Shown: positions 3,739 through 51,335 of the stretch, piece by piece
Numbering within the stretch: position 1 is the first letter of the stretch
How the letters are laid out: each line of letters starts with the position of its first letter
Assembly (NCBI RefSeq): GCF_011742165.1
Contig: NZ_JAAQTO010000005.1
Location: 41,839-105,838 of the forward strand
Direction: 5' to 3'
Length of the DNA: 64,000 nucleotides
Source of the DNA: Billgrantia bachuensis
Lineage (GTDB): Bacteria; Pseudomonadota; Gammaproteobacteria; Pseudomonadales; Halomonadaceae
The notes under the pieces: model-generated
Told to the model about the DNA's origin: nothing
Databases searched by the model: none
What the model saw: the letters and a program-made list of their open reading frames with translations, nothing else
Made by a program: the position numbers and the translations under genes

Positions 3739-3815
3739 GAGAAACTGCCTTTGAGCCGATGAATTCGGGTACCGAGGCAAGTATTTCTGCGCTCGGCACC
3801 CTCCTTGTCTACCTG

Positions 3816-34963: not shown

Positions 34964-36970
34964 CTACCACAGGCTGTCGATCAGGTCATCACCGAAAGCG
35001 GTGATCACCACGGTGTTACGTCCATCCGCCTTGGCCTTGTAGCTCGCCTCGTCGGCGCGAGCAAGCACGGTCTCGGCCGATTCGTCGCCCTCCTGGAGAG
35101 CCGTGACTCCCATACTGAGCGTGATGGTATAGGTCTTGTCCTCATTGGTCACCGTGACCTCGGACACTGCGCGGCGCAGGGATTCAGCGATCTCGCCCGC
35201 CTGCTTGACCGTACAACTGGGTAGCAGGACGGCGAATTCATCCCCCCCCTGGCGAGCGACATGATCGCTGCGCCGCACTTCCCAGGCTACTACTTGGGCA
35301 ACTCGCCGCAACATCTCGTCACCCAAGGCGTGACCACCCTCGTCATTGATCGGCTTGAAGTGGTCGAGATCGAACAGAATCAGCACCGAGGGAGTGCCGG
35401 TCTTGGCATACTCCGCCAACGCCTCCTCGAGGCGTCGCTCGAAGCCACGCCTATTGAGCAGCCCTGTCAAGGGGTCGTGTTCAGCTTCCCAGCGCTGCAG
35501 TGCCTCCTGCTGCCGTCGCTCAGTGATGTCCTTGACCATGCCCACGAAACCCAGTGACTGCTCGTTGCCCTGTACCTGGCTGGCATGCACCTCGACCCAC
35601 AGCGTGGCCCCGCTCGAATGAAGGAAACGTATTTGGCGCACGAAGTCGTTGCCGGTCGCCAGGGTATGCTGCCACATGTCCTCGGCTCCCCGCTGATCTG
35701 CGGGGTGTATGCGCTCCCACCACTCTCTGTCGCTATGCAGCTCGTCGAGCCCGAGCAGCTCGAGAAGCGCCGGGTTCAGATAGTTGAGGCGGCCGCTCAG
35801 ATCCGCTACGAACATGCCAATGGGGGTAGAACCGAGCACCGCATCGAGAAACGCCTGGCGATCGCGTAGGTGCTCCAGCGCCGCCAGTCGCTCGTGCTCG
35901 AGGCGATTGAAGCTGCTGGCGACCTGACGCAGCTCATGCATGCTGGTGGAGAGCTCCAGGTAACGCCTCTCGCCCGCTCCGACCTGGGCGATTTGCCGCT
36001 CGAGCCGGTGCAGCGGGCGCAGCAGTCGCCGGACCAAAAGACGCATGGTGACCAACAACATGACCGCCAGCACCAGCCAGGCCCACCATAGCCGGCCCAG
36101 AAAATCGCCCAAGGGCTGCCGAACCTGGGCCTGCGGTACCGCCACCTTGACGATCCAGTTAGCCGGCCAGATCTGGCGATACGACATCAGGGTCGTGGAA
36201 CCGCTCGCTGCCTGAGCGACCGTCTCCCCCTGCCAACCATCCAGCGCGAGTTGCAGCGTCGGAAAATCGCTGGGGATACTCCTGTGTTCGGCTGGCTGCT
36301 GGCGGCGCGGATGAAAGAGTCGCTCTCCCTCTGCGGTGAATACCGATACGTAGCCATCCTCGCCCAACCGGATCGTCTCCAACCGGCGGAACAGACCACC
36401 TTGAGCGAGATTGATCATGCCGCCGACCACACCGGCAAAGCGCCCTTGCTCATCGAAGCGCGGCACCAGCATGAGCACCAATGAATCACCACTCGCCCTG
36501 CCGGTGAAAGGACGGCTGACGTAAGGCCATGGTGAATGACGAACCATGCGGAAATATTCCGTGTCGGCGGTTTCAAGCCCCACCCGCCCCGGCACGATGG
36601 GCCAATCCGCAACGACACGCCCTTCGGCGTCGGTCACCATCAACCCCTCGAACCACTCCAGCAGCACCTGGCTATTTGCCAACCGTGACGTAAGCTCGGC
36701 CGCTTCGGCGTCACGCAGGGCCCGCTCGAGTCGCTGGAGCGCGCCTATCCTGCGGTCGACCTGGCGGGTCAGGTCATCGGCGACCAGCTGCGACTCGTAG
36801 CGTAGATGAGATAGATTGGCTTCGTCGACGAGCCCCTTGCCGAACTGCCAGGCCAATACCAGAACGACGCCGACAATCACCAGCCAGGTCATGGCCAACC
36901 CCGTAAGGAGGCGCCCCTGCAGCGAACAGATCGAGCGAGCCAGTGACGCGACTGGAGCCATCACGTGCAA
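34964..36970 (-). CDS. Membrane diguanylate cyclase: Cache sensor, HAMP-like linker, PAS, GGDEF
   Basis: 668 residues. Membrane helix at about 25-45, a periplasmic Cache-type domain (about 50-285), a second helix at about 290-310, a PAS domain (about 370-480) and GGDEF (about 495-660). Active-site signature ARQGGDEFAVLLPS, with RRSD five residues before it as an RxxD inhibitory site. It should make c-di-GMP from two GTP in response to an extracellular ligand. Start is uncertain: AAGGGG lies 6 nt before the TTG at 36970, while an in-frame ATG lies at 36961. Convergent to flgN. Confidence 0.9.
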   Translation of the reverse strand: MHVMAPVASLARSICSLQGRLLTGLAMTWLVIVGVVLVLAWQFGKGLVDEANLSHLRYESQLVADDLTRQVDRRIGALQRLERALRDAEAAELTSRLANSQVLLEWFEGLMVTDAEGRVVADWPIVPGRVGLETADTEYFRMVRHSPWPYVSRPFTGRASGDSLVLMLVPRFDEQGRFAGVVGGMINLAQGGLFRRLETIRLGEDGYVSVFTAEGERLFHPRRQQPAEHRSIPSDFPTLQLALDGWQGETVAQAASGSTTLMSYRQIWPANWIVKVAVPQAQVRQPLGDFLGRLWWAWLVLAVMLLVTMRLLVRRLLRPLHRLERQIAQVGAGERRYLELSTSMHELRQVASSFNRLEHERLAALEHLRDRQAFLDAVLGSTPIGMFVADLSGRLNYLNPALLELLGLDELHSDREWWERIHPADQRGAEDMWQHTLATGNDFVRQIRFLHSSGATLWVEVHASQVQGNEQSLGFVGMVKDITERRQQEALQRWEAEHDPLTGLLNRRGFERRLEEALAEYAKTGTPSVLILFDLDHFKPINDEGGHALGDEMLRRVAQVVAWEVRRSDHVARQGGDEFAVLLPSCTVKQAGEIAESLRRAVSEVTVTNEDKTYTITLSMGVTALQEGDESAETVLARADEASYKAKADGRNTVVITAFGDDLIDSLW

Positions 36971-37244
36971 TGAAATCCCCTTGGTGGAGGTAAAATATGG
37001 CCTGTCGGCTTCGCCTTGACAGAGTGTACCGCCTCTTCCTGGCAGCCCCGCCCGAAGGCAGGAGAACTAATTTCGTTATCGGCAAGCCCGAAGCGAACTT
37101 GAGCCCTGCAGACGCATCAAAGCATGTTACCCAACATGACGACCCCGCCCCTCAACGCAAGAGGGGACCTTTGCTCAAGTCCTGGCGAGGCAGGACGATA
37201 TAGACTTAAAGTCGATCCGCACTCAACTTAATGAAGCCGCTCAG

Positions 37245-38990
37245 ATGACCGAAAAAGGTAACCGCCCCCCGGGCAAGCACCTGCATGTCCTTGCTCAACA
37301 TCCGGCGAGGTTGGTGCAACATGCCTTCGAGCAGAGCCAGACCGGTATGGTCATCACCGACCAGAATGGCATCATTGTGCTGGTCAACGATGCCTTTTGC
37401 CGTATCGCTGGTAGCGATAGCACCGAAACGAGCGGTTGGCCAATCGAGCATTTCTACGTCTCTCGACGCACACCTTCGCACCTGCCGGTTACTGCTGACA
37501 CCACACCGAACCTGACGCATTCCTGGCAACAGGAAGTACTCTGTCGTCGCGCCGACGGTGAGTCGCTACCGGTATTGATGACGGTCGACGCGATACTCGA
37601 CGAACATCAGCAGCCACGCCACTTTCTGCATAGCTTCGTCCAGCTCACCAGCGCCAACGGCGAGATGCTCGATGATCGTCACTGGATTCACATCGATCCC
37701 ATCACCGGCCTGCCTAACTGGCTGCTCCTGCGCGATCGCCTGGGCCACGCTCTGGCCCAGGCCGAACGTGCCGACACCACCCTGGCACTTCTATTCATCG
37801 ACATCGACCGATTCAAGACCATCAACGACGCGGCAGGCCATATCGAGGGAGATCGCATGTTGGGCGAATTGGCCCAACGTCTACAACGCGAGGTGCGCAG
37901 CAAGGATACCCTGGCCAGGCTCGGCAGCGACCAGTTCGTGGTTCTGCTGGAAAAGGATGGAACGGCGGAGGCGGCGCAGCTGGTAGCGGAACGCCTGCAG
38001 GAAGCCCTGGAGCCCCCCTTCATCTCGGGGGATCGCTACCTGCTGATGACGGCATCGATCGGTATCGCCTTCTATCCCACCGATGCCGAGGATGTCGAGA
38101 CGCTGCTGACAGCCGCGCGGAGCGCCATGTTCATCGCCCGTAAGAAGGGGCCTGGCCGCCTTGCCTTCGTCGATCATCGTTTGACGGCACGACTCAAGGA
38201 GAAACAACAGCTCGAGAGCCTGCTCAGCGAAGCCGTTCATATGCCGGATCACCACTTCGTGTTGCACTACCAGCCGGAGCTCGATCGGCACTCTCTTCTC
38301 TGTACCGGCCTGGAAGCCGTGCTGCGCTGGAAACGCCCCAAGCGCTGGCAGCAACCACCGGGGTACTATATGGACGTTCTCGCCCGCCTGGGGCTTGGCG
38401 TAAGACTCAACCGCTGGATGATCCAGACCTCGATATCCGATCATCGCCAGTGGCATGACACCGGCTCTCCCCTGGGAGGACTGCCGGTTTCCATCCAGCT
38501 CTGCGAATCGCATCTGGCGCAGGATACCTTCGACCACCGGCCACTGGACCATTTCCTGCGCCACCAGGAGATGGGGGCCTTCGAATGGCTGACCCTGAAG
38601 GTACCTTCCCACGGCATTGGCAGCGACTTGGACAAGGCGACTCACCTACTGAAGCGGCTCGAGCGGCTTGGTATCCGCCTTGCGGTCGAGGGAGTCGGCA
38701 CAAACTCCGTCGACCTTGCCTGGCTGTCTCGCCTGCCTTTCCACAAAGCCACCATCGATGCTCAACTGGTCGGAATGCGTCAGGATGGGCGGCGTCTGGT
38801 GGAGGCCTCGTGTCGCATGCTGAACGCTCTCGATATCGAGCCGGTGATCGTCGGCATCGATAATGTAAACCTGGCATCCAACCTGGAGCCGGTCTCCGCC
38901 CGTCTCGTGCAGGGCAACCTCTACTGCCCGGCGCTGTCGGCTGAGGCACTGAGCCACTGGCTCGAAGAGCACAGGCCGGCCGAGGAATGA
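37245..38990 (+). CDS. PAS-GGDEF-EAL protein with both catalytic sites degenerate
   Basis: 581 residues, no membrane segment. PAS at about 28-130, GGDEF-like domain about 145-305, EAL-like domain about 320-575. The cyclase motif reads GSDQF instead of GGDEF, yet the inhibitory RxxD (RSKD) is kept five residues before it. The EAL domain has LEAVLRW for EALLRW, QLCESHL where N.S is expected, VEGVGTN for DDFGTG and VGIDNV for AEGVE, so essentially all metal ligands are lost. It is most simply read as a c-di-GMP binding or protein-interaction module. Divergent from the preceding cyclase; converges on the amidase gene. Confidence 0.88.
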   Translation: MTEKGNRPPGKHLHVLAQHPARLVQHAFEQSQTGMVITDQNGIIVLVNDAFCRIAGSDSTETSGWPIEHFYVSRRTPSHLPVTADTTPNLTHSWQQEVLCRRADGESLPVLMTVDAILDEHQQPRHFLHSFVQLTSANGEMLDDRHWIHIDPITGLPNWLLLRDRLGHALAQAERADTTLALLFIDIDRFKTINDAAGHIEGDRMLGELAQRLQREVRSKDTLARLGSDQFVVLLEKDGTAEAAQLVAERLQEALEPPFISGDRYLLMTASIGIAFYPTDAEDVETLLTAARSAMFIARKKGPGRLAFVDHRLTARLKEKQQLESLLSEAVHMPDHHFVLHYQPELDRHSLLCTGLEAVLRWKRPKRWQQPPGYYMDVLARLGLGVRLNRWMIQTSISDHRQWHDTGSPLGGLPVSIQLCESHLAQDTFDHRPLDHFLRHQEMGAFEWLTLKVPSHGIGSDLDKATHLLKRLERLGIRLAVEGVGTNSVDLAWLSRLPFHKATIDAQLVGMRQDGRRLVEASCRMLNALDIEPVIVGIDNVNLASNLEPVSARLVQGNLYCPALSAEALSHWLEEHRPAEE

Positions 38991-39018
38991 CTGGGCTCGA
39001 CCTGACCGGGATTCGCCA

Positions 39019-40443
39019 CTAGACGACCGAGTCGCCTCGCGACAAATCGAGCTCATCGGGAAAGCGCGACGGAAAAGCCGACAGATAAGCGTGGCTGACC
39101 CTTAAGATTCGCGCATCATCATGCTTGCCACCCGCCAACTGGAACCCCACAGGCAGGCCACTAGGCGTGAAGCCGCAGGGAACGGACGCAGCGGGCTGCT
39201 GACTGAGGTTGAAGGGATAGGAAAATGGCGCCCACTCCTCCCAGTCGCGCATGCCGGTGCCCGGCGGCACGTCGTGATTGAGAGGAAAGGGACGCACTGC
39301 CACCGAAGGTGTCATGACAAGGTGGTAACACTGATTGAAGTGTTCGAGCTTCTCCGTCAGGCGCGCCCTCTCCTTCAGCGCATAGAACATGTCCAGTGCG
39401 CTCAACTGCTCGGCCCGCTTCGCGTCGGCCACCAGGCCGGAGTCGAGCAGCCGGCGCTGCCGCTCGCCGTGCTCTCGATACAGCGCAAGCGAAGCAGTGA
39501 ACCAGAGCGTATTGAAGATACGGATGGGCGACTCGAAACCTGGGTCTACCTCTTCCACCTCGGCGCCGAGCTCAGCGAGCCGACAGGCTGCCTGGCGTAC
39601 GCATTCGGCCACCTCGGACTCTACCCGGGCATAGCCCAACGTGGGTGAGTAGGCGATGCGCATGCCCTCGATCCCCTGACCAAGCTCTTCGCCCCAATCG
39701 TCCGGTTGTCCACGCAAGGCGTAAGGATCTCGATAGTCGTAGCGCCCTATCACGTTCAGCATGCGTGCCGCATCGGCCACGGTTCGAGTCAATGGCCCCA
39801 AGTGGGAGAGCGAGGCCTCCTTCGAGCGTGGCCACTCCGGCACCCAGCCAAAGGTGGGCTTGAAGCCAAACACACCGCAGAATGATGCGGGTATGCGGAT
39901 CGAACCGCCTGAATCGCCCCCTTGGTGCAGTACGCCCATATTGAGCGCCGCTGCTGCCGCCGCGCCACCCGAAGAACCACCCGGCGTCAGCCTGGTGTCC
40001 CATGGGTTGGCCGTCGCGCCGAAGATGCGATTATCGGTAATGGCCTTCCAGCCGAATTCCGGCGTATTGGTCTTGCCCAGGATTACCGCTCCCGCCTCGC
40101 GCAGCATGCGTGCCGGCGGAGAATCCCGTTCGCAAGGGGCGTCCGACTCTGTCAGCGATCCCTTGCGCGCCGGCAGGCCGATTGATTCGGTCAGATCCTT
40201 CAATGAGACCGGAACGCCATCGATGCGGCTGAGAGCACGACCTTCGCGCCAGCGCCGGGTCGAAGCCTCGGCGGCCGCTTCTGCACCCTCCCTGTCGACG
40301 ACTACGTAAGCATTGACGCGATCGTTGAAGCGATCGATGCGCTCGAGAGCAGCTCTCGTTGCCTCCAGGGGTGAAGCCGCACCGCTTTCGAAAAGCTGTC
40401 GAAGCTGCCCCGCATCCATGGTGCCAAGATCGGTATCGCTCAC
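39019..40443 (-). CDS. Amidase-signature family hydrolase
   Basis: 474 residues. The Ser-cisSer-Lys catalytic set is visible: Lys in VSLKDLTES, the Gly/Ser-rich PGGSSGGAAAAAA and the nucleophile region GGDSGGSIRIPA. Hydrolyses an amide or acyl-amide; substrate cannot be told, and the fatty acid amide hydrolase and GatA-like branches look alike. The GTG at 40443 has GGAGG 6 nt upstream and gives MSDTDLG; the frame is open further upstream but runs into the preceding gene. It is 85 nt downstream of the dehydrogenase gene on the same strand, so they may be co-transcribed. Confidence 0.87.
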   Translation of the reverse strand: MSDTDLGTMDAGQLRQLFESGAASPLEATRAALERIDRFNDRVNAYVVVDREGAEAAAEASTRRWREGRALSRIDGVPVSLKDLTESIGLPARKGSLTESDAPCERDSPPARMLREAGAVILGKTNTPEFGWKAITDNRIFGATANPWDTRLTPGGSSGGAAAAAALNMGVLHQGGDSGGSIRIPASFCGVFGFKPTFGWVPEWPRSKEASLSHLGPLTRTVADAARMLNVIGRYDYRDPYALRGQPDDWGEELGQGIEGMRIAYSPTLGYARVESEVAECVRQAACRLAELGAEVEEVDPGFESPIRIFNTLWFTASLALYREHGERQRRLLDSGLVADAKRAEQLSALDMFYALKERARLTEKLEHFNQCYHLVMTPSVAVRPFPLNHDVPPGTGMRDWEEWAPFSYPFNLSQQPAASVPCGFTPSGLPVGFQLAGGKHDDARILRVSHAYLSAFPSRFPDELDLSRGDSVV

Positions 40444-40528
40444 AAGAACCTCCGTTTTTCCAGTGAGACCTCCTACGAGTGTGGGGAAAAAACATCCCGT
40501 TGGGCAAAATAGGGACTTCGCGCAACCA

Positions 40529-41515
40529 TTAGCCACGCCGCGCTGAGCGCTGGTGGCGCTGACTCAGCATCCAGCTTATCGATGCTACGACAGTCGCCGC
40601 CGAAGCCACCGTCAACACGCGCCGGCGCAGGCGTGGCGAGCGAAAGCGGCCATCGATGCGCCGCTCTCCGCCAGGAGGAGCGAATAGGTTTCCTGACGAT
40701 TCGGCCTGCGGCCGTGCCCGGCGCAGCGAGGCATCCACCAAGCTGGCATTGATCGTGCTGTAACCCGGCACCCATTGCGCAAACAGCGACAGCACGGCGG
40801 GCAGACCGACGTAGACGCTAGGCCGTGGTCGCCTGGCCAACCCCACGATGGCCCGCGCCGTACGCCGTGGATCGTAGACCGGCGGAACGGGCTTGACGAC
40901 ACGGCCCGTATAGTTCGCCCCATCCCGGAAACCCGGCGTATCCATGACGGAGGGAAAGAGATTGCAGACATGAATGTTCGGCCAATGGCGCAATTCGCCA
41001 CGCAGGCTCTCGCCAAAGGCGCGCAAGCCGAACTTCGCGGCGCTGTAGGAGGCTGCATAGGGCTGTGGCGCCCATCCCCCCAGCGAGACGTTGTTGATGA
41101 GAGTACCGCACTCCTGCCGCTTGAAGTACGGCAACACCGCATGGGCACCACGCAAACCGCCCAGCAGGTCGGTCTGTAACACCTGCTCATGAACTTCGCG
41201 CGGCACTTCCTCGAATGGCCCCAGCGCACCGACTCCAGCGTTATTGACCCAGACATCGATACGGCCCGCCGTATCGAATGTACTCCTGGCAACTCGCTCC
41301 ATGTCGTCGGGCTGGCTGACGTCGGCAACGACTATTCGGGCCTGACCACCCAGGCGATGACACGTCTCGGCTACATCGTGAAGAGCCCGGCGGTCGCGGG
41401 CGACGAGGAACAGCGCGGCACCACAGCGTGCGAACTCTTGGGCAGCGGCCCGGCCAATGCCACTCGAAGCGCCTGTCAACACGACTACCGCATCGCGCAA
41501 ATCTTTTGTACGCAT
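40529..41515 (-). CDS. Short-chain dehydrogenase/reductase with C-terminal membrane anchor
   Basis: 328 residues. NAD(P)-binding TGASSGIGRAAAQEF, NNAGVGALGPF, and the catalytic YSAAK (Tyr-x-x-x-Lys) after NNVSLGGWAPQP. The classical SDR core ends near residue 250. A basic, Arg-rich extension then leads to a hydrophobic stretch (VLTVASAATVVASISWML) that may anchor it to the membrane. The ATG at 41515 has GGAGGAG 5 nt upstream. Substrate unknown. Confidence 0.88.
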   Translation of the reverse strand: MRTKDLRDAVVVLTGASSGIGRAAAQEFARCGAALFLVARDRRALHDVAETCHRLGGQARIVVADVSQPDDMERVARSTFDTAGRIDVWVNNAGVGALGPFEEVPREVHEQVLQTDLLGGLRGAHAVLPYFKRQECGTLINNVSLGGWAPQPYAASYSAAKFGLRAFGESLRGELRHWPNIHVCNLFPSVMDTPGFRDGANYTGRVVKPVPPVYDPRRTARAIVGLARRPRPSVYVGLPAVLSLFAQWVPGYSTINASLVDASLRRARPQAESSGNLFAPPGGERRIDGRFRSPRLRRRVLTVASAATVVASISWMLSQRHQRSARRG

Positions 41516-41707
41516 CTCGACTCCTCCCTGATGACGCCTACTCCGAGCCGGCAATAGCCAGCGCGGTGTCGTTGGCATCTCCGACCGTGCCCATAACGTA
41601 GTCGACGGAGCGCGAGAATGGCGGAGCGCGTGCCACCAACTTTGTATCATTGCGTTTCAAGGAGCTAATCTTGGTTAATAGATGCGCACAATGACAAGGA
41701 AAAGAAA

Positions 41708-41950
41708 ATGAATAAGGCATTGGTGGCTGCCGCCTGCGCAGTCGGCATCGGCGCTGGCATCCATCTGCTCAACGATGCAAGGGACCAGGCGGAAACGGTA
41801 AACCCAGGTGACCTGTCACCGGACCAGCAGCGCTATTGCGAGAACGTCGAGCAGTGGTATCGGGAAGAGATGCTTGATGTCGCGCCCAAGTGGCGTCTCG
41901 GCCATCCTGACGAACAGGGCACCTATACTCAATGGTGTGCGGAAAGGTAG
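41708..41950 (+). CDS. Small exported protein of unknown function
   Basis: 80 residues. The N-terminus is a short hydrophobic stretch (MNKALVAAACAVGIGAGIHL) that may be a signal or anchor. The rest is acidic with two cysteines (RYCENVEQWYREE and TQWCAER) that could pair in the periplasm. AAGGAAAAG lies 3-11 nt upstream of the ATG. I do not recognise the family. It stands alone between the dehydrogenase gene and the repeat-rich island edge. Confidence 0.65.
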   Translation: MNKALVAAACAVGIGAGIHLLNDARDQAETVNPGDLSPDQQRYCENVEQWYREEMLDVAPKWRLGHPDEQGTYTQWCAER

Positions 41951-41972
41951 AGGAATAGCGACAGATATACGC

Positions 41973-42004
41973 AAAAAGCCGCCTGGCGCGATGCGCCAAG
42001 CGGC
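41973..42004 (-). terminator. Copy 1 of the tRNA-Ala terminator hairpin
   Basis: AAAAAGCCGCC then TGGCGC, GAT, GCGCCA and AGCGGC: the same hairpin that lies directly after tRNA-Ala at 48438-48470 and again at 42691-42723. On the minus strand it ends in TTTTT. Here no tRNA lies next to it, so it looks like a remnant of rearrangement, though it could also serve the small gene that ends at 41950. Confidence 0.75.
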
Positions 42005-42010
42005 GAATCA

Positions 42011-42290
42011 TGTAGCTCAATGACAGAGCTGCACCGAATCCCCTTCTCTATCAGCGCCTACCGCTGCGCTTATCTGTCAAATTGCCGGCTGGCCAACGGT
42101 CCACGGTGCTGGCCGTAGAGTATCCAGCGCCAGCAGCAGCCTCAGAAAAACGAAAGCCCGGCCGAATGAACGGCCGGGCCATCCCGTTGCGCATCGCTCC
42201 CTGACGCATCCCTCAGCGTGGCATCTGACGTCACTTATGTCAGGTGGATTCTGTGCGTGATCGTACATCAAGTTTGTAAGACATAGCTTA
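42011..42290. repeat. 280-bp direct repeat, left copy
   Basis: Nearly identical to 44903-45185, with scattered substitutions and small indels. It holds a TAGCTC...GAGCTG hairpin and a second perfect 8-bp hairpin GCCCGGCC/GGCCGGGC at 42156-42179 that is terminator-like on the minus strand. No convincing coding frame. The two copies flank the island chemoreceptor gene. Of the 536 nt between the flanking genes, the remaining 200 nt downstream show nothing clear. Confidence 0.9.
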
Positions 42291-42486
42291 CAGCGTGGCG
42301 AGCAGAGTCTGGCCAACATGAGCGGTTTCGGTGTGGCCGTTTCTGCGGAATAGAGAAAGCCTCCACAAAAGGGACGAGATAGCAGGCGCTACCAGCACGA
42401 AAAACGAGCTAGCCGCCCCGCTTGACCATAGGGCAGCGGCCAGCCATACCTAGACGGAATCACTCATTCCAGGCAAGGAGGTCTGT

Positions 42487-42645
42487 ATGAGAAAATGGTT
42501 AATGCTGGCTGCATTCAACTGGCTCAGAAAGCCAGCAAATCGTGCCAAAGCGAAGAACGCTTGGAACAACTTTCGAGGAAAAAAGCCTGACAGCCGCTCT
42601 CCCGGGTCGGCTCCCAACCGTCGTCCTGGTGATCGTCCCGACTAG
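42487..42645 (+). CDS. Small basic protein of unknown function, 52 residues
   Basis: Preceded by a strong AAGGAGG ribosome site 5 nt before the ATG. Starts MRKWLMLAAFNWLRKPANRA, continues AKAKNAWNNFRGKK and ends in a Pro/Arg/Asp tail (PGSAPNRRPGDRPD). Very basic, with an amphipathic Trp/Leu-rich opening. The last third is repeated at 45294-45363, where the differences are one Ser to Ala change and one silent change plus conserved stop, which supports real coding. I do not recognise a named family. Confidence 0.6.
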   Translation: MRKWLMLAAFNWLRKPANRAKAKNAWNNFRGKKPDSRSPGSAPNRRPGDRPD

Positions 42646-42689
42646 CCAACCGCACCTGTCCGACCTCAAAAACGCAGTTTACAGGCTAA

Positions 42690-42790
42690 CGAAAAAGCCG
42701 CCTGGCGCGATGCGCCAAGCGGCTGATTCTACGAAACTTTGGTGGAGCCTAGCGGGATCGAACCGCTGACCTCAACACTGCCAGTGTTGC
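42690..42790 (-). repeat. Partial tRNA-Ala copy with its terminator (island attachment-site duplicate)
   Basis: 42740-42790 repeats, without change, the last 51 nt of tRNA-Ala(GGC), from the anticodon arm to the CCA end. 42691-42723 repeats its terminator hairpin. The corresponding intact region is 48437-48539. The 5' part of the tRNA, with the D arm and half the acceptor stem, is missing, so no functional tRNA is made. This is the usual signature of an element inserted at a tRNA 3' end. Confidence 0.9.
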
Positions 42791-43010
42791 ATAGGCGTTC
42801 GCCTAAAGTACTGCTAGCAAAGATAAGCCCACTCCTTCCACTGGAAGCACATACAGCATATACGCTCAACGTGGCTACTGGCGCTCCGACAGGGTTTTAC
42901 GGCTCTAGTCCTGAAAGGGAAAAGTGTGGCCTGTTGCTTCGTACCGATCTGACCCAGCTGGCGGCTGACTGCGGCTGGGTAGCCGGGGCGCGTATTTTTC
43001 CTACTTATAC

Positions 43011-43037
43011 TTAAGTTCTAGGTGCTGATGCCGATAG
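43011..43037 (+). promoter_or_regulatory. Sigma-28 promoter of the island chemoreceptor
   Basis: TTAAGTTC, 11-nt spacer, GCCGATAG, 35 nt upstream of the ATG at 43072. The -10 element is perfect; the -35 element has two mismatches to the consensus. Confidence 0.82.
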
Positions 43038-43071
43038 AAGGGTCTCATTCCCTCACAAGCGGTACTGAAAC

Positions 43072-44745
43072 ATGCTCTCACGTGTCAAAATTGGTACAAG
43101 GCTCGGCATCGCCTTCGGTAGCGTTTCTCTGCTACTCCTAAGCATCTTCGGCGCAGGAATGCTTGGGCTTAACTCAATTAACAGAACTGTGAATACTACC
43201 CTGGAAAGAGATGTGGCACTTTCCTCAAACTCTGCCCTAGTTAAAATTCTATCTTTACAGCAACGCCGCTACGAAAAAGATGCGTTTATAAACATCAGCA
43301 ACCAAGAAAAGCTAGCATCTTATTATGACAAATGGCAAGATACACAAATTAGGCTCAGAGAAGCTCTAACAAATGGATCCTCTTTGACCGAATCAGAAGC
43401 CTTACACAAACTATATAGTGAAGCCGACATTGCTTTAGATGGCTACGTCGACGGTTTTAACACGGTCTATGACAACATCACAAACGGTAGAATTAGTGAC
43501 ACGGAGAGTGCTAACGTTGCTTTCAGTGAACACAAACAAGCAATCTATAAATTAGAAGAATTGGCTGAACAGATAGAGCAAGCCGCGTTAGCTCGAGTGA
43601 ACGTAGCCAAAGGTGATATAATTAAACAATACGACTTCGCGCGCTGGTCACTTATTGCCTTTTCGACAATAGCACTCTTGATGGCTATTTTTTTAGCTTA
43701 TGCGATTACTCGCAGCATAGTAAACCCATTGAAAGGCGCAGTAGAGGTGGCCCATCGAGTCGCCGAAGGGGATTTAACATCGAAGATCGTTAACAAGGGC
43801 TCAGATGAAATATCTTTGCTATTGTCCAGCCTTAACACTATGCAGAACAAACTTAGTAGTTTGGTTGTTTCGCTGCGCAGTAGTAGTAAAAACGTTTATA
43901 CGGGCTCAAATGAAATTGCAATCGGTAGCCAAGATCTTTCTACACGTACCGAAGAACAGGCCTCCTCCTTGCAGGAAACCACCTCTAGCATGGAGCAAAT
44001 AGTTTCGACTGTACGACAAAATACTGATTCTGCAAGTGAAGCGGATCGACTTTCTTCTGATGCTGCCGATACAGCTGAAGCCGGTAGTCAGGATGTTCTT
44101 CGCACCATTGAACTAATGCAAGAAATTGCAGCCAGCTCCAACAAGATCAACGAATTCGTTGAGATAATCGATTCAATTTCCTTCCAGACCAACATCCTCG
44201 CTCTGAATGCTTCCGTTGAAGCAGCCCGAGCTGGAGAACAGGGTCGAGGATTTGCTGTAGTGGCCAATGAGGTTCGCTCTTTGGCTAGTCGAAGTGCAGA
44301 GTCTGCAAAAGAGATACGCGCAGTAGTGGAATCGACTACAGCCCAAATCGGCAATGGAGCCGAGCAGGCCAAGCGCAGCGGTAAAACCATCAACCAGACG
44401 GTCGAATCAATTCGCCAAGTCTCTAACTTGATGAAGGAAATCGCGATCGCAACCCGTGAGCAAAGTAGCGGCATTGATCAAATCAATATTGCACTCACTG
44501 CTATGGACACCATAACTCAGCAGAATGCTTCTCTGGTCGATCAAACAAGTGCCGCCGCTGCTTCTCTCGAGGTCCAGGCCAAGCAACTGACTGAATTAGT
44601 TTCCACGTTCCGCACGGAGGATAAAATCGAAATGAGCCCTTCACCTCAGCGAGATGTAAGAGAGAGCCAGTCGCTTTCGATTACTACTGCAAGATCATCT
44701 CGATCTCCGGTTCAGCCCGAAGAAATAGAAAGGAGTGAGTATTAA
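43072..44745 (+). CDS. Methyl-accepting chemotaxis protein of the island (four-helix-bundle sensor)
   Basis: 557 residues. Membrane helix at about 10-33, a periplasmic four-helix-bundle (4HB_MCP) domain with [13 protein letters not shown], a second helix at about 190-211, HAMP ([20 protein letters not shown]), then the signalling domain with tip [20 protein letters not shown]. Base composition is visibly AT-richer than the flagellar genes, and codon choice differs (many AAA, ATA, AAT), which suggests transfer. Lies between two copies of a 280-bp repeat and within the tRNA-Ala island. No CheB/CheR-binding pentapeptide at the C-terminus. Confidence 0.92.
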
Positions 44746-44902
44746 GCTAGAACGCATGCGTTACGCAAGGCTGCCTAGCAATTCTCTTTTGGCCGCAGCG
44801 TTTTAGTGTAGCTGCCATTTTTTATGGCTATAATTGGGTATGTATCATCAGGTGGCCCGGGCGCCGACAAATAATTGCCCGCCCGTGCCACTTCTCTGCA
44901 GG

Positions 44903-45185
44903 TGTAGCTCAATGATAGAGCTGCACCTGCACCGAATCCCTCTCTCAGCGCCCTACTGCTGCGTTTATCTGTCAAATTGCCGACTGGCCAGCGATCCACG
45001 GTGCTGGCCGTAGAGTATCCAGCGCCAGCAGCAGCCTCCAGAAACACGAAAGCCCGGCCGAATGAACGGCCGGGCCATCCCGTTGCGCATCGCTCCCTGA
45101 CGCATCCCACAGCGTGGCACCTGACGTCACTTATGTTAGGTAGATTCTGTGCGTGACCGTACATCAAGTTCGTAAGATATGCTTA
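44903..45185. repeat. 280-bp direct repeat, right copy
   Basis: Matches 42011-42290 along its whole length. It opens inside a long imperfect palindrome (GCAGGTG, TAGCTC, loop, AGAGCT, G, CACCTGC at about 44898-44930), which is better preserved here than in the left copy. It contains the same GCCCGGCC/GGCCGGGC hairpin. Confidence 0.9.
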
Positions 45186-45293
45186 TATTGATCCCGGCGA
45201 CCGGTAATCCAAGGCGCCGCACCCCACTCATGACTCGATCTCGCCGATACGGCTGCAGCTAGGCTGGCCATTGCACGGCAGGGTTCCCGCTTG

Positions 45294-45363
45294 GCCTGAC
45301 AGCCGCTCTCCCGGGGCGGCTCCCAACCGTCGTCCTGGCGATCGTCCCGACTAGCCAACCGCA
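45294..45363 (+). pseudogene. Truncated 3' copy of the 52-residue small gene
   Basis: Reads the same frame as the end of the small gene at 42487-42645 (PDSRSPGAAPNRRPGDRPD, then stop), with no start codon or ribosome site; the upstream sequence is unrelated. The break point at 45294 marks one edge of a duplication. Confidence 0.7.
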
Positions 45364-45372
45364 TCTAACGAA

Positions 45373-45401
45373 AACGCCCCTCCGGATGCCGGCAGGGCGT
45401 T
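45373..45401 (-). terminator. Terminator-like hairpin downstream of the GGDEF-EAL gene
   Basis: AACGCCC and GGGCGTT with an inner CCGG/CCGG pairing; on the minus strand it ends in TTTTCGTT. It lies about 140 nt beyond the end of the gene at 45538. Confidence 0.6.
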
Positions 45402-45537
45402 GGTAAATCTGGCTCTCGGCGGAAATACGCGCCAGCCTACAGATACGAAAACGCCATATGCTGATGCGTGCAAATTTTGTAAAGATCTAGCACTCCCTCC
45501 TTTCTACTTAACCAGTGTAGATCGATAGCACCCCTCA

Positions 45538-47802
45538 TCATGGGCCTGCCCTATCAGAATCTGGTTCAGTTACGTTCCCTTCAGCGGGGAGTAAGAGGGT
45601 TTCCACAAAGTGTCTCCTGCACATGAATCGGTACAGTTCCGCCTCGGGTATTGGACGCGAAATCAGGTATCCTTGGGCTGTATCGCATCCCATTTTTGCT
45701 AGCGCCTGTAGTGTTGCTTCATCTTCGACCCCCTCCGCCGTCACCCGAAGCCCCATCTTATGGGCGAGGTTGATTGTAGAAGCGATGATGGCCCTATCTT
45801 TCTCACTCTCCATCATATTGGCGATAAAACTACGATCCAGCTTCACTTCATCAACAGAAAACTTGCTGAGGTAAGATAAAGAAGCGTAACCAGTTCCAAA
45901 GTCATCTATTGCACAGCTAATGTTAGCTTCATGAAGTTCACTAACCACCTTCTGAGCATGATCATGATCTTGAATGACGCCTGTTTCTGTTATTTCAAGG
46001 CAAAGTCCCTGCGGGTACCAGAACTGTTTCAATGATAGAATGTAGTCTACTAGCGTGTATCCCTCAGCCAAGTCTCGAGCCGAAACGTTAACGCTAATAC
46101 TAAAGTCAGGGTCATGAGAACGGCATCGTTCAATTTGAGCCACCGACTCTTTAAGAACCCAATAAGTCAACTGTTTAATCAACCCCGTCTCTTCCAAGAG
46201 TCCAATAAAATGACCAGGAGGCACAAAGCCTAAAGTCGGGTGCTGCCAACGAACCAGCGCTTCCGCTTCCTTTATGTATCCGCTCGTCAAGTCAAGCTTA
46301 GGTTGGTACAATAAATACATATCGCGGGTGCCAAACCGACGAAAATCTTCTACGAGGATGAGGTCATTAGGATCAGGTTCAAGGCCGCCAGTGTAAACAC
46401 GCCATGCTTCAGAAGCTTTCGTTGCTGCTGAGTAAGCGGTCATGGCACGTCTAACTAACTCCTCCGCCTCAGATTGGCTCTTATGACCGACTTCAGCGCG
46501 ACCCTCGCTAATTCCCATAACCACGTTTGCGCTTATATTTAACTTCCCTATTTCAAGGGACTCACTAACGAATACCACAATGTCTTCGTGTGACATTTCA
46601 TGTTTTCTTACGATAGCGAATACACCTGAGCCAAAATGGCTAATCTGTGCAAACCCCAGGGATTCCAAGCGGCTAGAAAACTCTTGCAACAACAACTCAT
46701 GGCCGAAATGATAGCCGAACAAGCTGGTTAACTGTTCAAGATTGAGCAATCGAAGGAGGATGACAGTAGGTGCCAGCTCGCTTCGTTCTTCCAGCAATCG
46801 ACCCAAGTTATCGATGAATGCCGCTCGGCTGGGTAAACCTGTGACCTCATCATAATCTGCTTTGTAGCGCAGTTCCTTCTCAAGCTCCCTTTTGGCTGTA
46901 AGCTCCTCGTAAAGTCGACGTGTACGGAAGCGCACCAAACGCTTTAAGTACCAAGAGAGAGAAAATCCAAGAAGAGTGGCAAAAGATAGCGGCAAAAGTA
47001 ACCAGTAGAAATAGCGAAGCCAATCAGACATGCGGTGCTTATGCCATTCTAGCTCTGGTATCCATTCATGATAAATATCGTGGTACGTGCCTTCCGCCTG
47101 AATCAATGCTAGATTAGTGTTTAACCAACTCAACATTTCATCGTTGCCCTTTCGTACACCGAACACATATGGTTGTGGCCAGAAAGGGGCGCTTGTTTGT
47201 TCTACTTGAGTCTCGGCGGCATGCCTGCGCGAAGTGTTAACCACTTCCACGCAGGCATCTGCTTCTTGTTCATTGACAGCGACCAAGCAGTCTCGCTCCG
47301 TTTCAACCTCTACCAGAATGAAATCATGTTGTTCTTCCTCAAGCCGAGTTGCTGCATAACTGCCTCGTACTACAGCAACCCGCCCCCCCACTAACTCATT
47401 TAACGTCCTATAACTCTTGTTATTTAATGAAAATATCCCATGCGACAAATAATAAAAGGGCTCCGTAAAATCGAAATCTTCTTTACGCCCCTCCGAGGCT
47501 AGCAAAGGTATAACATCTGCCTGCCCCAGCCTGACAGACTCAATGGCTTCCTCCCATGCCATTAACCTATGCTCGGCGACCCTATTACCTTGTTGAGCCA
47601 AGCTATCCTGAAGATCTATAACAAATCCCTTGGCTTGGCCATCTTGGGGAACCCACTGGAACGGACGATAGGTTGCTGAGCCTACAAAAACAACCTTTGC
47701 CGGCTCTGATGTTTCTACTTGGCCATGTGAGGCGCTAGTGGTAACCCCTATAATCGTAAGCCCCACAGCCCAGAACCATACTTTTATTAACTTAATTCTC
47801 AT
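45538..47802 (-). CDS. Transmembrane GGDEF-EAL phosphodiesterase with solute-binding sensor
   Basis: 754 residues. Signal peptide, then a periplasmic extracellular-solute-binding-type (SBP_bac_3) domain, about 35-255 (VVFVGSATYRPFQWV, FDFTEPFYYLSHGIF). A membrane helix follows (about 270-290), then a GGDEF-like domain whose site reads FGSGVF, so cyclase activity is lost. The EAL domain (about 490-735) has every key motif intact: EALVRW, NVSARDL, LEITETG, IDDFGTGYASLSYL, KLDRSF, AEGVE. It should hydrolyse c-di-GMP when its sensor, which resembles amino-acid binding proteins, is engaged. AT-richer than the core genes, like the island chemoreceptor. Confidence 0.9.
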   Translation of the reverse strand: MRIKLIKVWFWAVGLTIIGVTTSASHGQVETSEPAKVVFVGSATYRPFQWVPQDGQAKGFVIDLQDSLAQQGNRVAEHRLMAWEEAIESVRLGQADVIPLLASEGRKEDFDFTEPFYYLSHGIFSLNNKSYRTLNELVGGRVAVVRGSYAATRLEEEQHDFILVEVETERDCLVAVNEQEADACVEVVNTSRRHAAETQVEQTSAPFWPQPYVFGVRKGNDEMLSWLNTNLALIQAEGTYHDIYHEWIPELEWHKHRMSDWLRYFYWLLLPLSFATLLGFSLSWYLKRLVRFRTRRLYEELTAKRELEKELRYKADYDEVTGLPSRAAFIDNLGRLLEERSELAPTVILLRLLNLEQLTSLFGYHFGHELLLQEFSSRLESLGFAQISHFGSGVFAIVRKHEMSHEDIVVFVSESLEIGKLNISANVVMGISEGRAEVGHKSQSEAEELVRRAMTAYSAATKASEAWRVYTGGLEPDPNDLILVEDFRRFGTRDMYLLYQPKLDLTSGYIKEAEALVRWQHPTLGFVPPGHFIGLLEETGLIKQLTYWVLKESVAQIERCRSHDPDFSISVNVSARDLAEGYTLVDYILSLKQFWYPQGLCLEITETGVIQDHDHAQKVVSELHEANISCAIDDFGTGYASLSYLSKFSVDEVKLDRSFIANMMESEKDRAIIASTINLAHKMGLRVTAEGVEDEATLQALAKMGCDTAQGYLISRPIPEAELYRFMCRRHFVETLLLPAEGNVTEPDSDRAGP

Positions 47803-48007
47803 ACGTCCACTATCTCGCGAGGCCCATTACATCCTGTGTCTTGTCCTATCTCGACCCATGCTCAACACCTGCAGCGTTAAATTATCGTTTTACTAGTTCA
47901 AGCACGCCTAACCCAAGTATCTCATGCCATCTAAGCTTTAGGCATAGCATATTTTATTAAGAAGCCTAACCACAAATCTTGTGTTCTGGTTGCGGCTACG
48001 AGGAGTC

Positions 48008-48172
48008 TCAAAAGCGGCATGGCTTGAAGGCCCTAACCCTGTGCGGCTGGCGCATTTCTACCAATCGCCCAGGTCGCCGGCTGTCCTCGACCTGCTCAAA
48101 ACAGTCAACAGCAAAGCTGGACACGCTGAAGCCCAGCTGGCGTCCATAATGCTCGACGTTGGCGGCAATCAT
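48008..48172 (-). pseudogene. Possible gene fragment, family not recognised
   Basis: An open frame of 54 codons from an ATG at 48172: MIAANVEHYGRQLGFSVSSF, then AVDCFEQVEDSRRPGR. It has the composition of a folded protein and no ribosome site. It may be a truncated island gene; there is no function to propose and it may be chance. Confidence 0.25.
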
Positions 48173-48207
48173 GTCATAGCTCGCGCCCTACGCCCTGCAC
48201 CCGTCGA

Positions 48208-48390
48208 TTGCTTGCGCGCCTGGATGTGAGGCAGAAGCCGACGTTCCACGAATCCGCTCGCTCGGCTCCGAGCTGTTCGAGCCACGCAGACGAAGCGATG
48301 ACAAAACATTACCTGGATGGTCACGGCATCCGCTGGCAGGAAGCGAAGGGCCCAGGAAAAGGCATGAACGCCCTTCTTGGAGCGTCCTAA
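48208..48390 (+). pseudogene. C-terminal relic of a tyrosine-type phage integrase
   Basis: Reads KPTFHE, then in the +1 frame IRSLGSELFE, then back in frame SHADEAMTKHYLDGHGIRWQ. These are the catalytic HxxR box and the Tyr nucleophile box (MTKHY) of lambda-type integrases. A one-base loss and a deletion of roughly a dozen codons between the boxes inactivate it; the N-terminal two-thirds are gone. It points toward the 3' end of tRNA-Ala 99 nt away, the expected position of an integrase beside its attachment site. Confidence 0.72.
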
Positions 48391-48437
48391 AATGGCTAGT
48401 AATGGAGTGGAGGTTTACGGGAATTTTACGGGCACGC

Positions 48438-48470
48438 GAAAAAGCCGCCTGGCGCGATGCGCCAAGCGGC
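48438..48470 (-). terminator. Terminator of tRNA-Ala
   Basis: GCCGC, mismatch, TGGCGC, GAT loop, GCGCCA, mismatch, GCGGC, followed on the minus strand by TTTTT. It lies 18 nt after the CCA end of the tRNA. Confidence 0.85.
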
Positions 48471-48488
48471 TGATTCTTCAAAACTTGT

Positions 48489-48564
48489 TGGTGGAGCCTA
48501 GCGGGATCGAACCGCTGACCTCAACACTGCCAGTGTTGCGCTCTCCCAGCTGAGCTAAGGCCCC
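48489..48564 (-). tRNA. tRNA-Ala (anticodon GGC)
   Basis: 76 nt including an encoded CCA. GGGGCCT acceptor pairs with AGGCTCC, D arm TTAGCTCAGCTGGGAGAGC, anticodon arm CAACA-CTGGCAG-TGTTG giving GGC, T arm GCGGTTCGATCCCGC. It is the intact member of the pair whose 3' copy lies at 42740-42790, so it is the insertion site of the island. Confidence 0.97.
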
Positions 48565-48594
48565 ACACGTTCTCGACCTGCGAGAACGAGGCGT

Positions 48595-48623
48595 ATCTTA
48601 CCCATCGCGGCCGAGTCCGTCAA
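48595..48623 (-). promoter_or_regulatory. Sigma-70 promoter of tRNA-Ala
   Basis: Minus strand TTGACG, 17-nt spacer, TAAGAT, about 30 nt upstream of the tRNA 5' end. Between them lies a CGTTCTCG/CGAGAACG hairpin (48568-48588) in the precursor leader. Confidence 0.75.
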
Positions 48624-48822
48624 TAGTCCGCACGAGAACATACTCTTCGTTGATAGAAAGCGGGGATTGGGATGCTCGTTCAATTTCCCTTGCCTCATGA
48701 GTATGGCAAGCTTGCAACTGAATGCCGAAGGCTCGGTGTTCAGAGCCTAGCCCGAGTTCAAGCTCCGCCGCGACTGCCTGTTCGTCGCCGCCAGCTATCC
48801 GCAATGACGAGGAATGTCAGTC

Positions 48823-49470
48823 TTGATCAAGGTGCTCATTGTCGATGACCATCATCTGGTTCGCACCAGTCTCGCTCGCTTGCTCGAGAATGAAGAGGAT
48901 ATAAATGTGGTGGGCGAAGCCGCCAGCGGCGAGGAAGCCATTACCCTTTGTCGCGAGCTGGAGCCGGATGTCATTCTGATGGACCTGCGCATGCCAGGTA
49001 TCGGCGGTCTTGAAGCGACTCGCAAGATCATGCGCAACAATGCCGATGTGCGTATTCTGGCCCTTACCGGTTTCATGGAAGACAATTTCGCTCAGCGCAT
49101 GCTCGATGCCGGTGCCGGCGGCTTCATCAGCAAGGACACCCAGGTACCGGACATGGTCGATGCCATCCGCAGCGTCTTTGCCGGGCATCGCTACATCAGC
49201 CCCGACATCGCCCAGCGCCTGGTCCTCTCGCGTTTCGACTCGGAGGAGAACCCGTTCGACAAGCTCTCGCAGCGCGAGCTGCAAGTGGCCATGATGATCG
49301 TCAACTGCCAGCGGGTCTCGGAAATCTCCGATCGGTTGTTCCTCAGCCCCAAGACCGTCAACACCTATCGCTACCGGATTTTCGAGAAGCTCGGTGTCGA
49401 AACCGACGTGGAACTCACCCACCTGGGACTGAAGCACGGCCTCATCGAAGGATTCGACTCCGCCAACTGA
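48823..49470 (+). CDS. gacA: Response regulator of the GacA/UvrY family
   Basis: About 215 residues. Receiver domain with IVDDHHLVRTS (acidic pocket), phospho-acceptor Asp in PDVILMDLRMPG, and Lys in GFISKDT; then a LuxR-type helix-turn-helix with LSQRELQVAMMIVNCQRVSE and SPKTVNTYRYRIFEKLG. In gammaproteobacteria it responds to BarA/GacS and drives CsrB/RsmY-type small RNAs. The GAGGA site ends directly at the ATG at 48814 but is 9 nt from the TTG at 48823, and MIKVLIVDDHH matches the family opening, so the TTG start is favoured. The conserved gacA-uvrC pairing supports the identity. Confidence 0.93.
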   Translation: MIKVLIVDDHHLVRTSLARLLENEEDINVVGEAASGEEAITLCRELEPDVILMDLRMPGIGGLEATRKIMRNNADVRILALTGFMEDNFAQRMLDAGAGGFISKDTQVPDMVDAIRSVFAGHRYISPDIAQRLVLSRFDSEENPFDKLSQRELQVAMMIVNCQRVSEISDRLFLSPKTVNTYRYRIFEKLGVETDVELTHLGLKHGLIEGFDSAN

Positions 49471-49499
49471 AGGCACGCTTCTGGTAATCTATTGCTTCC

Positions 49500-51335
49500 A
49501 TGCAAGACAGCCAGAGCGCCATGACCTTCGACCCGAGGCAGTTCCTTGCCAACCTCACGCAAGCCCCCGGCATTTACCGGATGCTGGATGAGCGTGGCGA
49601 CACCCTCTATGTAGGCAAGGCCAAGCGACTGAAGGCTCGCCTGGCCAGCTACTTTCGCGGCGCGCTCAATACCAAGACTCAGGCCATGGTGTCTCGCATC
49701 GCTGACGTCCAGGTCACGGTGACGCGCAGTGAAATCGAGGCCTTGCTGCTCGAGCAGACCTTGATCAAGGAGCTCCGGCCGCCTTACAACATCCTGCTGC
49801 GCGACGACAAGTCGTACCCTTTCGTCTTCGTCAGCGATCGCCATCCCTACCCCGCGCTCGAGTACAAGCGTGCCCGCAGGCGCCACGACGATGGACGCTA
49901 CCTGGGCCCTTACCCAAGCAGCGGCGCGGTACGGGAAAGTCTCTCGCTGATGCAGAAAATCTTCCGCATACGCAACTGTGAGGACAGCGTTTTTTCACAT
50001 CGCACGCGCCCCTGCCTGCAGTACCAGATCCAACGCTGCAGCGCGCCCTGCGTGGATTACATCAGTGAAGCCGACTATCGGCGCGACCTGGAGCATGCAG
50101 TGATGTGTCTCGAAGGTCGCAGCGAGCAGGTCACTCAGGAACTGACCGAGGCCATGGAAGCCGCCAGCCGTGACTTGGCATTCGAGGACGCCGCCCGCTT
50201 GCGCGATCAGATCCAGCATTTGCGCCAGCTCCAGCACCGCCAGTTCGTCGACACCGAAGGCGGCGACGCCGATGTATTTGCCTTGGCCGAACGCGAAGGT
50301 GCGCTGTGCATCTCTGTTCTCGCGGTACGTCAAGGGCGATTGCTGGGAGCTCGCCACCACACGCCTGACAACGGCTTGGGCCTGGCAGCCTCGGAGCTGC
50401 TGGGAGAGTTCGTCAGCCAATACTATCTTGGTCAGGGTCGCGAGATTCCTCGTGAAGTGATCAGCAGCCTGCCGCTCCCCGACGACGATATTCTGGAAAG
50501 CGCTTTGAGTAGCCGTGCCGAGCGGCGCGTACGTGTAACCCACAAGGTCCGCGGCCACCGCAGCCAGTGGCTCGAACTGGCACGCACCAACGCCGAGCAG
50601 CAGTTGGCCAGTCGTCTTGCCAGCCAGAACGAACTCGACCGCCGCTTCGATTCGCTGCAGAAAGCCCTGGCGCTCGAGACGACCATCGAGCGGCTCGAAT
50701 GCTTCGACATCAGCCATAGCCATGGCGAGGCGACAGTAGCCTCGTGCGTGGTATTCGACCGCAATGGGCCGCGAAAATCGGACTACCGGCGCTTCAATAT
50801 CGAAGGCGTGACTGCCGGCGACGACTATGCCGCCATGCGCCAGGCTCTAAGCCGGCGCTTTCGTCGCCTCGCCGAAGGCGAAGGAGCCACTCCGGACATT
50901 TTGCTGCTGGATGGCGGCAAGGGGCAGCTCAACCTGGCACGCGAGGTCCTGGGCGAACTGGAGCTCGGCCACATCCGTCTGCTTGGCGTGGCCAAGGGCA
51001 CCACACGCAAGGCCGGTCTCGAAACGCTTTTCATCGAAACCGTCGATCGCACCCTCGACCTGCCGACGGCATCGCCGGCCCTGCACCTCATCCAGCACGT
51101 GCGGGACGAAGCCCACCGCTTTGCCATCACCGGACACCGCAACCGTCGCGACAAGGCCCGCCGCAGCTCGGCACTGGAAGATATCGAAGGTATCGGCCCC
51201 AAGCGCCGTCGTGAACTGCTGCGCTTTTTCGGCGGGCTCCAGGGTGTCAAGCAGGCAAGCCGCGAAGAGCTTGCCCGTGTGCCCGGCATCAGTGCCACTC
51301 TGGCAGAGACGATTCATCGCTCCCTGCATGGATGA
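49500..51335 (+). CDS. uvrC: Excinuclease ABC subunit C
   Basis: 611 residues, the usual length. GIY-YIG nuclease domain (APGIYRMLDERGDTLYVGKA), UVR motif around 205-240 (AARLRDQIQHLRQLQ), RNase H-like nuclease centre (ECFDISHSHGEATVASCVVF, LLLDGGKGQLNLA), and C-terminal helix-hairpin-helix (LEDIEGIGPKRRRELLRFFG). Makes both incisions in nucleotide excision repair. The ATG at 49500 has no clear ribosome site; the ATG 7 codons later is possible. Confidence 0.98.
   Translation: MQDSQSAMTFDPRQFLANLTQAPGIYRMLDERGDTLYVGKAKRLKARLASYFRGALNTKTQAMVSRIADVQVTVTRSEIEALLLEQTLIKELRPPYNILLRDDKSYPFVFVSDRHPYPALEYKRARRRHDDGRYLGPYPSSGAVRESLSLMQKIFRIRNCEDSVFSHRTRPCLQYQIQRCSAPCVDYISEADYRRDLEHAVMCLEGRSEQVTQELTEAMEAASRDLAFEDAARLRDQIQHLRQLQHRQFVDTEGGDADVFALAEREGALCISVLAVRQGRLLGARHHTPDNGLGLAASELLGEFVSQYYLGQGREIPREVISSLPLPDDDILESALSSRAERRVRVTHKVRGHRSQWLELARTNAEQQLASRLASQNELDRRFDSLQKALALETTIERLECFDISHSHGEATVASCVVFDRNGPRKSDYRRFNIEGVTAGDDYAAMRQALSRRFRRLAEGEGATPDILLLDGGKGQLNLAREVLGELELGHIRLLGVAKGTTRKAGLETLFIETVDRTLDLPTASPALHLIQHVRDEAHRFAITGHRNRRDKARRSSALEDIEGIGPKRRRELLRFFGGLQGVKQASREELARVPGISATLAETIHRSLHG

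Follow-up and report, generated by a model that had tools for sequence, protein, structure and literature searches.

In the available portions of the papers cited here, Islander describes a tRNA-borne island as a tRNA gene with its displaced 3' fragment and reports an anticodon-centred crossover in 2083 of 3919 islands (PMC4383910). tRNA genes are known hot spots for phages and islands (PMC11476347), and composite islands form by tandem accretion, in which a tRNA already occupied by one element takes up another beside it (PMC4891358). Vibrio cholerae VSP-II carries the chemoreceptors VC0512/AerB and VC0514 together with the cyclic di-GMP (c-di-GMP) phosphodiesterase VC0515, under VerA and Zur control (PMC8248653). 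Pseudomonas aeruginosa RmcA combines an SBP_bac_3 sensor for L-arginine, PAS and GGDEF-EAL, with phosphodiesterase output (PMC8846402). Here we describe a locus at tRNA-Ala(GGC) in Billgrantia bachuensis where a chemoreceptor gene and a predicted c-di-GMP phosphodiesterase gene lie among the remains of mobile elements. The locus is contained in a stretch of 64,000 nucleotides (the window, G000:C45:41839-105838, with G000 denoting the source genome and the other G numbers further genomes of the genus).

Compared with islands of the Islander type, as far as the available text describes them, the locus shares a tRNA fragment in the same orientation and an anticodon crossover but has no intact integrase and three terminator copies. 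Stacking at one tRNA is shared with tandem accretion as there described, although both members here are relics and one integrase trace is left. The likeness to VSP-II, an island with chemoreceptors and a c-di-GMP phosphodiesterase, is one of content, VerA and Zur control belonging to VSP-II. The window phosphodiesterase resembles RmcA, in the part of its description available, in having an SBP_bac_3 sensor in a GGDEF-EAL protein, but it lacks a PAS domain at E 0.001, which places it outside the RmcA architecture, and its GGDEF domain is degenerate. Literature searches returned no title on this locus, which is not proof that none exists. The locus is a real tRNA island that has decayed and is likely composite; its kind is an ordinary one, and the general process is known.

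We consider it probable that positions 42,005 to ~48,430 are what erosion has left of two prophage-type elements, inserted site-specifically one after the other at the anticodon loop of tRNA-Ala(GGC). The features involved, from left to right, are as follows.

41,969-42,004, minus strand: displaced terminator native to tRNA-Ala, the true left edge of the insertion (97% over 37 columns to 48,434-48,470)
42,005-42,677, no strand assigned: relic, likely of the first inserted element, with block R1 (42,011-42,290) and a short tail (42,585-42,657)
42,678-42,790, minus strand: attachment-site (att) copy found by sequence comparison, comprising the terminator and 52 nt from the 3' part of tRNA-Ala
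42,791-42,903 (~113 nt), no strand assigned: element end adjoining the att core, recognised by similarity to other element ends
43,011-43,037, plus strand: FliA (sigma-28)-type promoter TTAAGTTC-N11-GCCGATAG from a consensus scan, with its end 34 nt upstream of the start codon
43,072-44,745, plus strand: intact chemoreceptor gene, 557 aa, with HAMP (Pfam accession PF00672) and MCP signalling (Pfam accession PF00015) domains
44,903-45,366, no strand assigned: second relic block, R2 (44,903-45,185) and a short tail (45,294-45,366)
45,538-47,802, minus strand: intact gene encoding 754 aa, a predicted c-di-GMP phosphodiesterase with SBP_bac_3, degenerate GGDEF and EAL domains (Pfam)
48,211-48,384, plus strand: tyrosine integrase relic, C-terminal part only (49-60% to the intact integrases of G013, G015 and G072)
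48,425-48,487, minus strand: terminator copy that now adjoins tRNA-Ala
48,489-48,564, minus strand: intact tRNA-Ala(GGC), the insertion target (Rfam, 61.8 bits)

Several observations place an insertion at this tRNA. First, positions 42,739-42,790 match 48,488-48,539, the tRNA-Ala 3' part, exactly over 52 nt. This repeat ends at the anticodon stem-loop and extends at its other side through the terminator (42,678-42,790 against 48,425-48,539, 93% over 115 columns, E 7e-44), and the displaced fragment and the intact tRNA have the same orientation, as in tRNA-borne islands. Three copies of the terminator are present, and just one of the displaced copies, the 42,690 repeat, includes tRNA sequence. 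Together with the cargo composition and the integrase relic described below, these similarities are far beyond chance.

Second, among the 26 other genomes whose tRNA-Ala-uvrY neighbourhood was read, we identified empty sites in two close relatives, G097 and G098. In G097, the sister of G000 in a uvrY tree (support 96/88), window positions 36,001-42,004 align as one piece (81.7%) and are followed by 48,431-49,873 (89.7%), with a 40-bp overlap that corresponds to the terminator. In G098, two separate alignments cover the left flank (36,001-40,490, 76%; 40,624-42,004, 74%), and the right flank aligns from 48,438 (85%), with a 33-bp overlap. The net insertion relative to G097 is ~6.47 kb. In both empty sites the tRNA terminator leads straight into the window sequence to the left of 42,004, so that the true left edge is the third copy of the terminator, at 41,969-42,004; the DNA of 42,005-42,690 is likewise missing from both genomes.

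Finally, base composition sets the two cargo genes apart. GC content falls to 0.43-0.50 in 1-kb windows over both genes, against 0.555-0.676 in windows outside 41.5-48.5 kb, and GC content at third codon positions is 0.43 in the chemoreceptor and 0.46 in the phosphodiesterase, against 0.67-0.79 in eight flanking genes.

A preliminary description of this DNA, made from its letters, had proposed a decayed 5.7-kb island between a 51-nt copy of the tRNA-Ala 3' part at 42,690 and the intact tRNA, carrying AT-rich cargo and an integrase relic. Its account of an insertion at the tRNA, of decay, of foreign composition and of an integrase remnant agrees with our results, the exact repeat being one nucleotide longer than stated; the empty site that it expected in relatives is present in G097 and G098, and the GC analysis that it proposed agrees with AT-rich cargo. 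Its left edge does not hold, since both empty sites run on into window DNA left of 42,004 and make the 42,690 copy internal. Nor is the single island supported: three terminator copies, the third of which it had missed, and two relic blocks, also missed, point to a composite.

We propose that a tyrosine integrase would have catalysed crossover in the anticodon stem-loop of tRNA-Ala, with the incoming element restoring the tRNA and pushing its native 3' part and terminator to the left. This would have taken place twice, and nearly everything except two genes would have been lost afterwards.

The integrase relic beside the intact tRNA corresponds to about residues 305-376 of the 377-residue G072 integrase, with 14-15 residues missing inside and ~60 codons remaining; as the preliminary description had supposed, it is real, and it matches the C-termini of three intact integrases. 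Only this C-terminal piece represents an integrase gene inside the locus, hence a decayed island. Because the relic is too short to excise it, the island is likely fixed. Searches for N-terminal integrase pieces gave no convincing match in the window, and Pfam and PHROGs returned no match for the frames at 47,981-48,226 and 48,208-48,387. For the stretch between the phosphodiesterase and the relic (47,960-48,207), the frame has no Pfam or PHROGs match.

Full elements occupy the same tRNA elsewhere in the genus. The G072 integrase, used as a query at E 1e-40, matched 7 of 90 genus genomes, with 86-88% identity in G013, G070, G075 and G015 and 58-59% in two others. In G072 and the four genomes at 86-88%, tRNA-Ala has uvrY on one side and the integrase, at a distance of 0.1-4.1 kb, on the other; a displaced copy of the tRNA is present 37-50 kb away (at a contig end in G075). 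The G072 and G013 integrases match phage integrase families. Nine of the ten element proteins tested match PHROGs of phage heads or tails. Those of G072 belong to tape measure, tail, portal, terminase, sheath and head families, G013 and G075 each have a tape measure match and G015 one to a tail protein, so that four of the five elements have phage genes. The five elements share the integrase C-terminus and attachment site with the window, and those of G070 and G072 also the element end; unlike the window, they span 37-50 kb and have intact integrases. Neither cargo gene was found inside the five elements in the parts read (G013, G015 and G070 were read partly).

A 165-nt query consisting of the 52-nt repeat and the adjoining element end matches the distal end of the 50-kb G070 element at 86% and that of the G072 element at 83%. 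The label 'prophage-type' derives only from these relatives of the element end and from those of the integrase. Related element ends occur at G000:C10 and near tRNA-Pro in G009. At the latter (L073, 8,032-8,337), the element end and a tRNA-Ala anticodon core lie ~100 bp from tRNA-Pro(GGG), and the same element end may thus use a second site. At G000:C10 (L071, 1-7,200), we identified another element with umuD, umuC, a YedK-like frame (by eye) and an integrase of another arm type; its att core is like that of the window, and no tRNA was found in its 16 kb.

The case for two insertions comes from the relic blocks. R1 and R2 (42,011-42,290 and 44,903-45,185) are 90% identical, and their tails (42,585-42,657 and 45,294-45,366) are 96% identical. 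They flank the 42,690 att copy on both sides, R2 lying between the two cargo genes. Because the repeats lie on either side of this copy, a composite of two successive insertions is likely, rather than one island. We infer accretion at this site, although members of a tandem array each bring their own tRNA fragment and integrase, whereas one integrase relic is present here and the outer copy consists of terminator only.

In G000:C10 and G010:C61, DNA like R immediately precedes umuD-type genes (Peptidase_S24 in both). At E 0.001, 15 of 90 genomes match R. Matches longer than 250 nt are confined to G000 (three places) and G010, on which ground we rejected R as a widespread repeat; shorter ones include G012 (164 nt) and G098 (~93 nt). 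A known RNA was also rejected, as Rfam on 40,000-50,000 at E 0.1 gave the tRNA alone, and so was umuDC coding DNA, since tblastn with UmuC and UmuD was empty in window 41,501-48,600 and gave short UmuC matches in G072 only. An imperfect inverted repeat (86%, 35 nt) resembling a tRNA D arm is found at the start of R2 (44,897-44,931), and part of it also begins R1.

A single insertion followed by an internal duplication, which produced the second relic block and the extra terminator copy, would account for there being only a single integrase relic and a single displaced copy that includes tRNA sequence. We consider this rather unlikely: an att copy with an element end between the relic blocks is the trace expected of a second insertion at the same tRNA, and an element is stacked over an older relic at this very site in G072.

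In window orientation, the G072 locus reads amidase, SDR, GntR, CoA transferase, TRAP genes and chemoreceptor, followed by the first ~50 nt of R2, a match to the UmuC tail, an att copy, the element end, a ~38-kb prophage and tRNA-Ala. On this gene order, G072 holds a relic bearing the chemoreceptor beneath a younger element. The chemoreceptor lies outside the att repeats in G072, whereas in G000 an att copy has it on its inner side. The simplest common reading of the two genomes would be that elements inserted repeatedly at one tRNA and that each round was followed by deletion. Within one genus, a single tRNA shows the site empty, occupied by full elements, with an element on top of a relic and with a relic alone, so that the steps from mobile element to host genome can be traced.

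The chemoreceptor has the HAMP and MCP domains of a methyl-accepting chemotaxis protein and would be predicted to feed a cue into the host chemotaxis system. Its close homologue in the genus is in G072 (78%), at this tRNA and without the phosphodiesterase; whole-length homologues above 60% were found in 1 of 89 other genus genomes (G072), in a search that scored the 11-15 best candidates per genome and may have missed some. Across 275 family genomes, in a search that scored nearly all candidates, 43 match the sensor half at E 1e-15, and identity exceeds 50% in G000 and G072 only. The next closest sensor half in the protein collection is from a Halomonas metagenome-assembled genome (80%). Between the G000 and G072 genes, nonsynonymous and synonymous divergence (dN and dS) are 0.129 and 0.845 (NG86) or 0.142 and 0.587 (YN00). 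Because dN is low relative to dS (dN/dS 0.15 or 0.24), the chemoreceptor is judged to be under constraint.

The FliA-type site upstream of the chemoreceptor spans -61 to -35 and agrees with 13 of 16 positions of the consensus. Shuffling the 150 nt upstream 1000 times never gave this score, and the G072 gene has a site at the same place (14/16). With up to three mismatches allowed, the window has nine FliA-type sites against 0.06 expected, which fits its flagellar cluster. The gene has its own FliA-type promoter, and on this ground we predict that the cell produces the chemoreceptor along with the host flagella. This suggests a route by which a foreign receptor may enter host motility via a flagellar-sigma promoter.

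A further reading, which we offer tentatively and with less than even confidence, is that of a portable, self-wired chemoreceptor: a foreign gene with its own flagellar-sigma promoter that prophage-type elements brought, on at least two occasions and in different lineages, to the same tRNA-Ala site beside a flagellar and c-di-GMP cluster, and that selection kept while its vehicles decayed. G072 and G000 would then preserve two stages in a lysogenic conversion of chemotaxis. The uvrY tree, with G072 as sister to G012, requires two changes in chemoreceptor presence.

Several points weigh against these interpretations. Any two separated rows of the tree would need two changes. For the chemoreceptor, dS is 0.845, much like the uvrY value of 0.858, yet below that of four other host genes (1.19-2.5); because of the closeness to uvrY, an old shared origin of the chemoreceptor with later losses is still conceivable. 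With three mismatches, its FliA-type site departs furthest of the nine from the consensus; a score of 13/16 is reached at 10 of the 18 homologous loci checked (G000 included), and 8 of 200 shuffles of the 19-kb G072 locus also yielded a site. The leftmost terminator copy has no tRNA part, and the first element has left no integrase trace, so that a single insertion with an internal duplication would yield the repeats as well. No phage structural gene was found in 42,005-48,430, where the only non-overlapping frames of at least 110 aa are those of the two genes and an antisense one of 130 aa close to R2. The G070 element end is the closest to that of the window, and the single G070 protein tested (from a long gene near the distal end) matched PHROGs of unknown function only. 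In G072, recognisable R2 sequence is limited to the first ~50 nt, and the umuC relic amounts to a match of 17-19 residues.

If the chemoreceptor belonged instead to an old host locus left of the tRNA, with only the rest being island DNA, its position in G072, after the TRAP operon and outside the att repeats, would be as expected. This is unlikely, and we give it little weight: in G012, the sister of G072, the TRAP operon adjoins the tRNA with no chemoreceptor there, none is present at the site in G097 or G098, and the gene is AT-rich in both carriers.

The phosphodiesterase has an EAL domain (Pfam accession PF00563) that retains its motifs EALVR, EITE, DDFG and EGVE, and it has lost the GGDEF motif. 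The protein is predicted to degrade c-di-GMP under the control of a periplasmic amino-acid-type binding domain. The best FliA-type score upstream is 9. Whole-length homologues above 60% (61-63%) were found, again among the 11-15 best candidates per genome, in 3 of the 89 genomes (G089, G097 and G098) away from this tRNA, and no tRNA-Ala copy was found near them in the ~19-kb loci read. G000 itself has a 53% paralogue at C44, beside a PilZ-HD gene. Against four homologues, dS is saturated and gives no value, and a scan of genome contigs with the phosphodiesterase confirmed no match. In G089, the homologue occurs twice (L110 and L111) with equal scores and an exonuclease frame beside each (RNase_T and FRG by Pfam in L110, by eye in L111); the double copy is likely a duplicated mobile segment.

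The preliminary description had regarded the two cargo genes as a matched pair and had held that the same cargo in all relatives would speak against an island. Such uniform cargo was not found, at 1 of 89 genomes for the chemoreceptor and 3 of 89 for the phosphodiesterase, and the pairing is not supported. Close homologues of both genes were found together in no other genus genome searched, no chemoreceptor match was present in the seven phosphodiesterase loci read, and the two genes are convergent, with a relic block between them. A single 5.7-kb island at 42,690-48,564 with a functionally matched pair is therefore very improbable: although the 42,690 repeat is the sole displaced copy with tRNA sequence, 42,005-42,690 is missing too from G097 and G098, and no joint occurrence of close homologues was found elsewhere.

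Positions 1-37,000 of the window hold a large flagellar cluster with the eight further FliA-type sites. Pfam, applied to ten proteins, identified FliD, FliG, FliM, FlgK, FlgJ-type, FlgH and FlgE/G-type proteins and a dCache-PAS-GGDEF protein. Two neighbouring FliD-like frames (876-2264 and 2368-3780, the first Pfam-tested) have very similar starts and are likely a gene duplication.

The same spot is variously occupied in the other neighbourhoods read. Twelve genomes gave no left-flank gene in the reading, which covered 5-18 kb to the left of the tRNA; in G009 no amidase match was found in the neighbourhood. G013, G015, G070, G072 and G075 have large elements, and G023 has an integrase relic. 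In G008, G010 and G005, the amidase is next to tRNA-Ala, without the SDR gene. G012 has an HMGL-TRAP-CoA transferase-GntR stretch, and G067 has ~1 kb of other DNA (L127, 16,313-17,317), which is 62% GC and lies between a small gene and the tRNA terminator.

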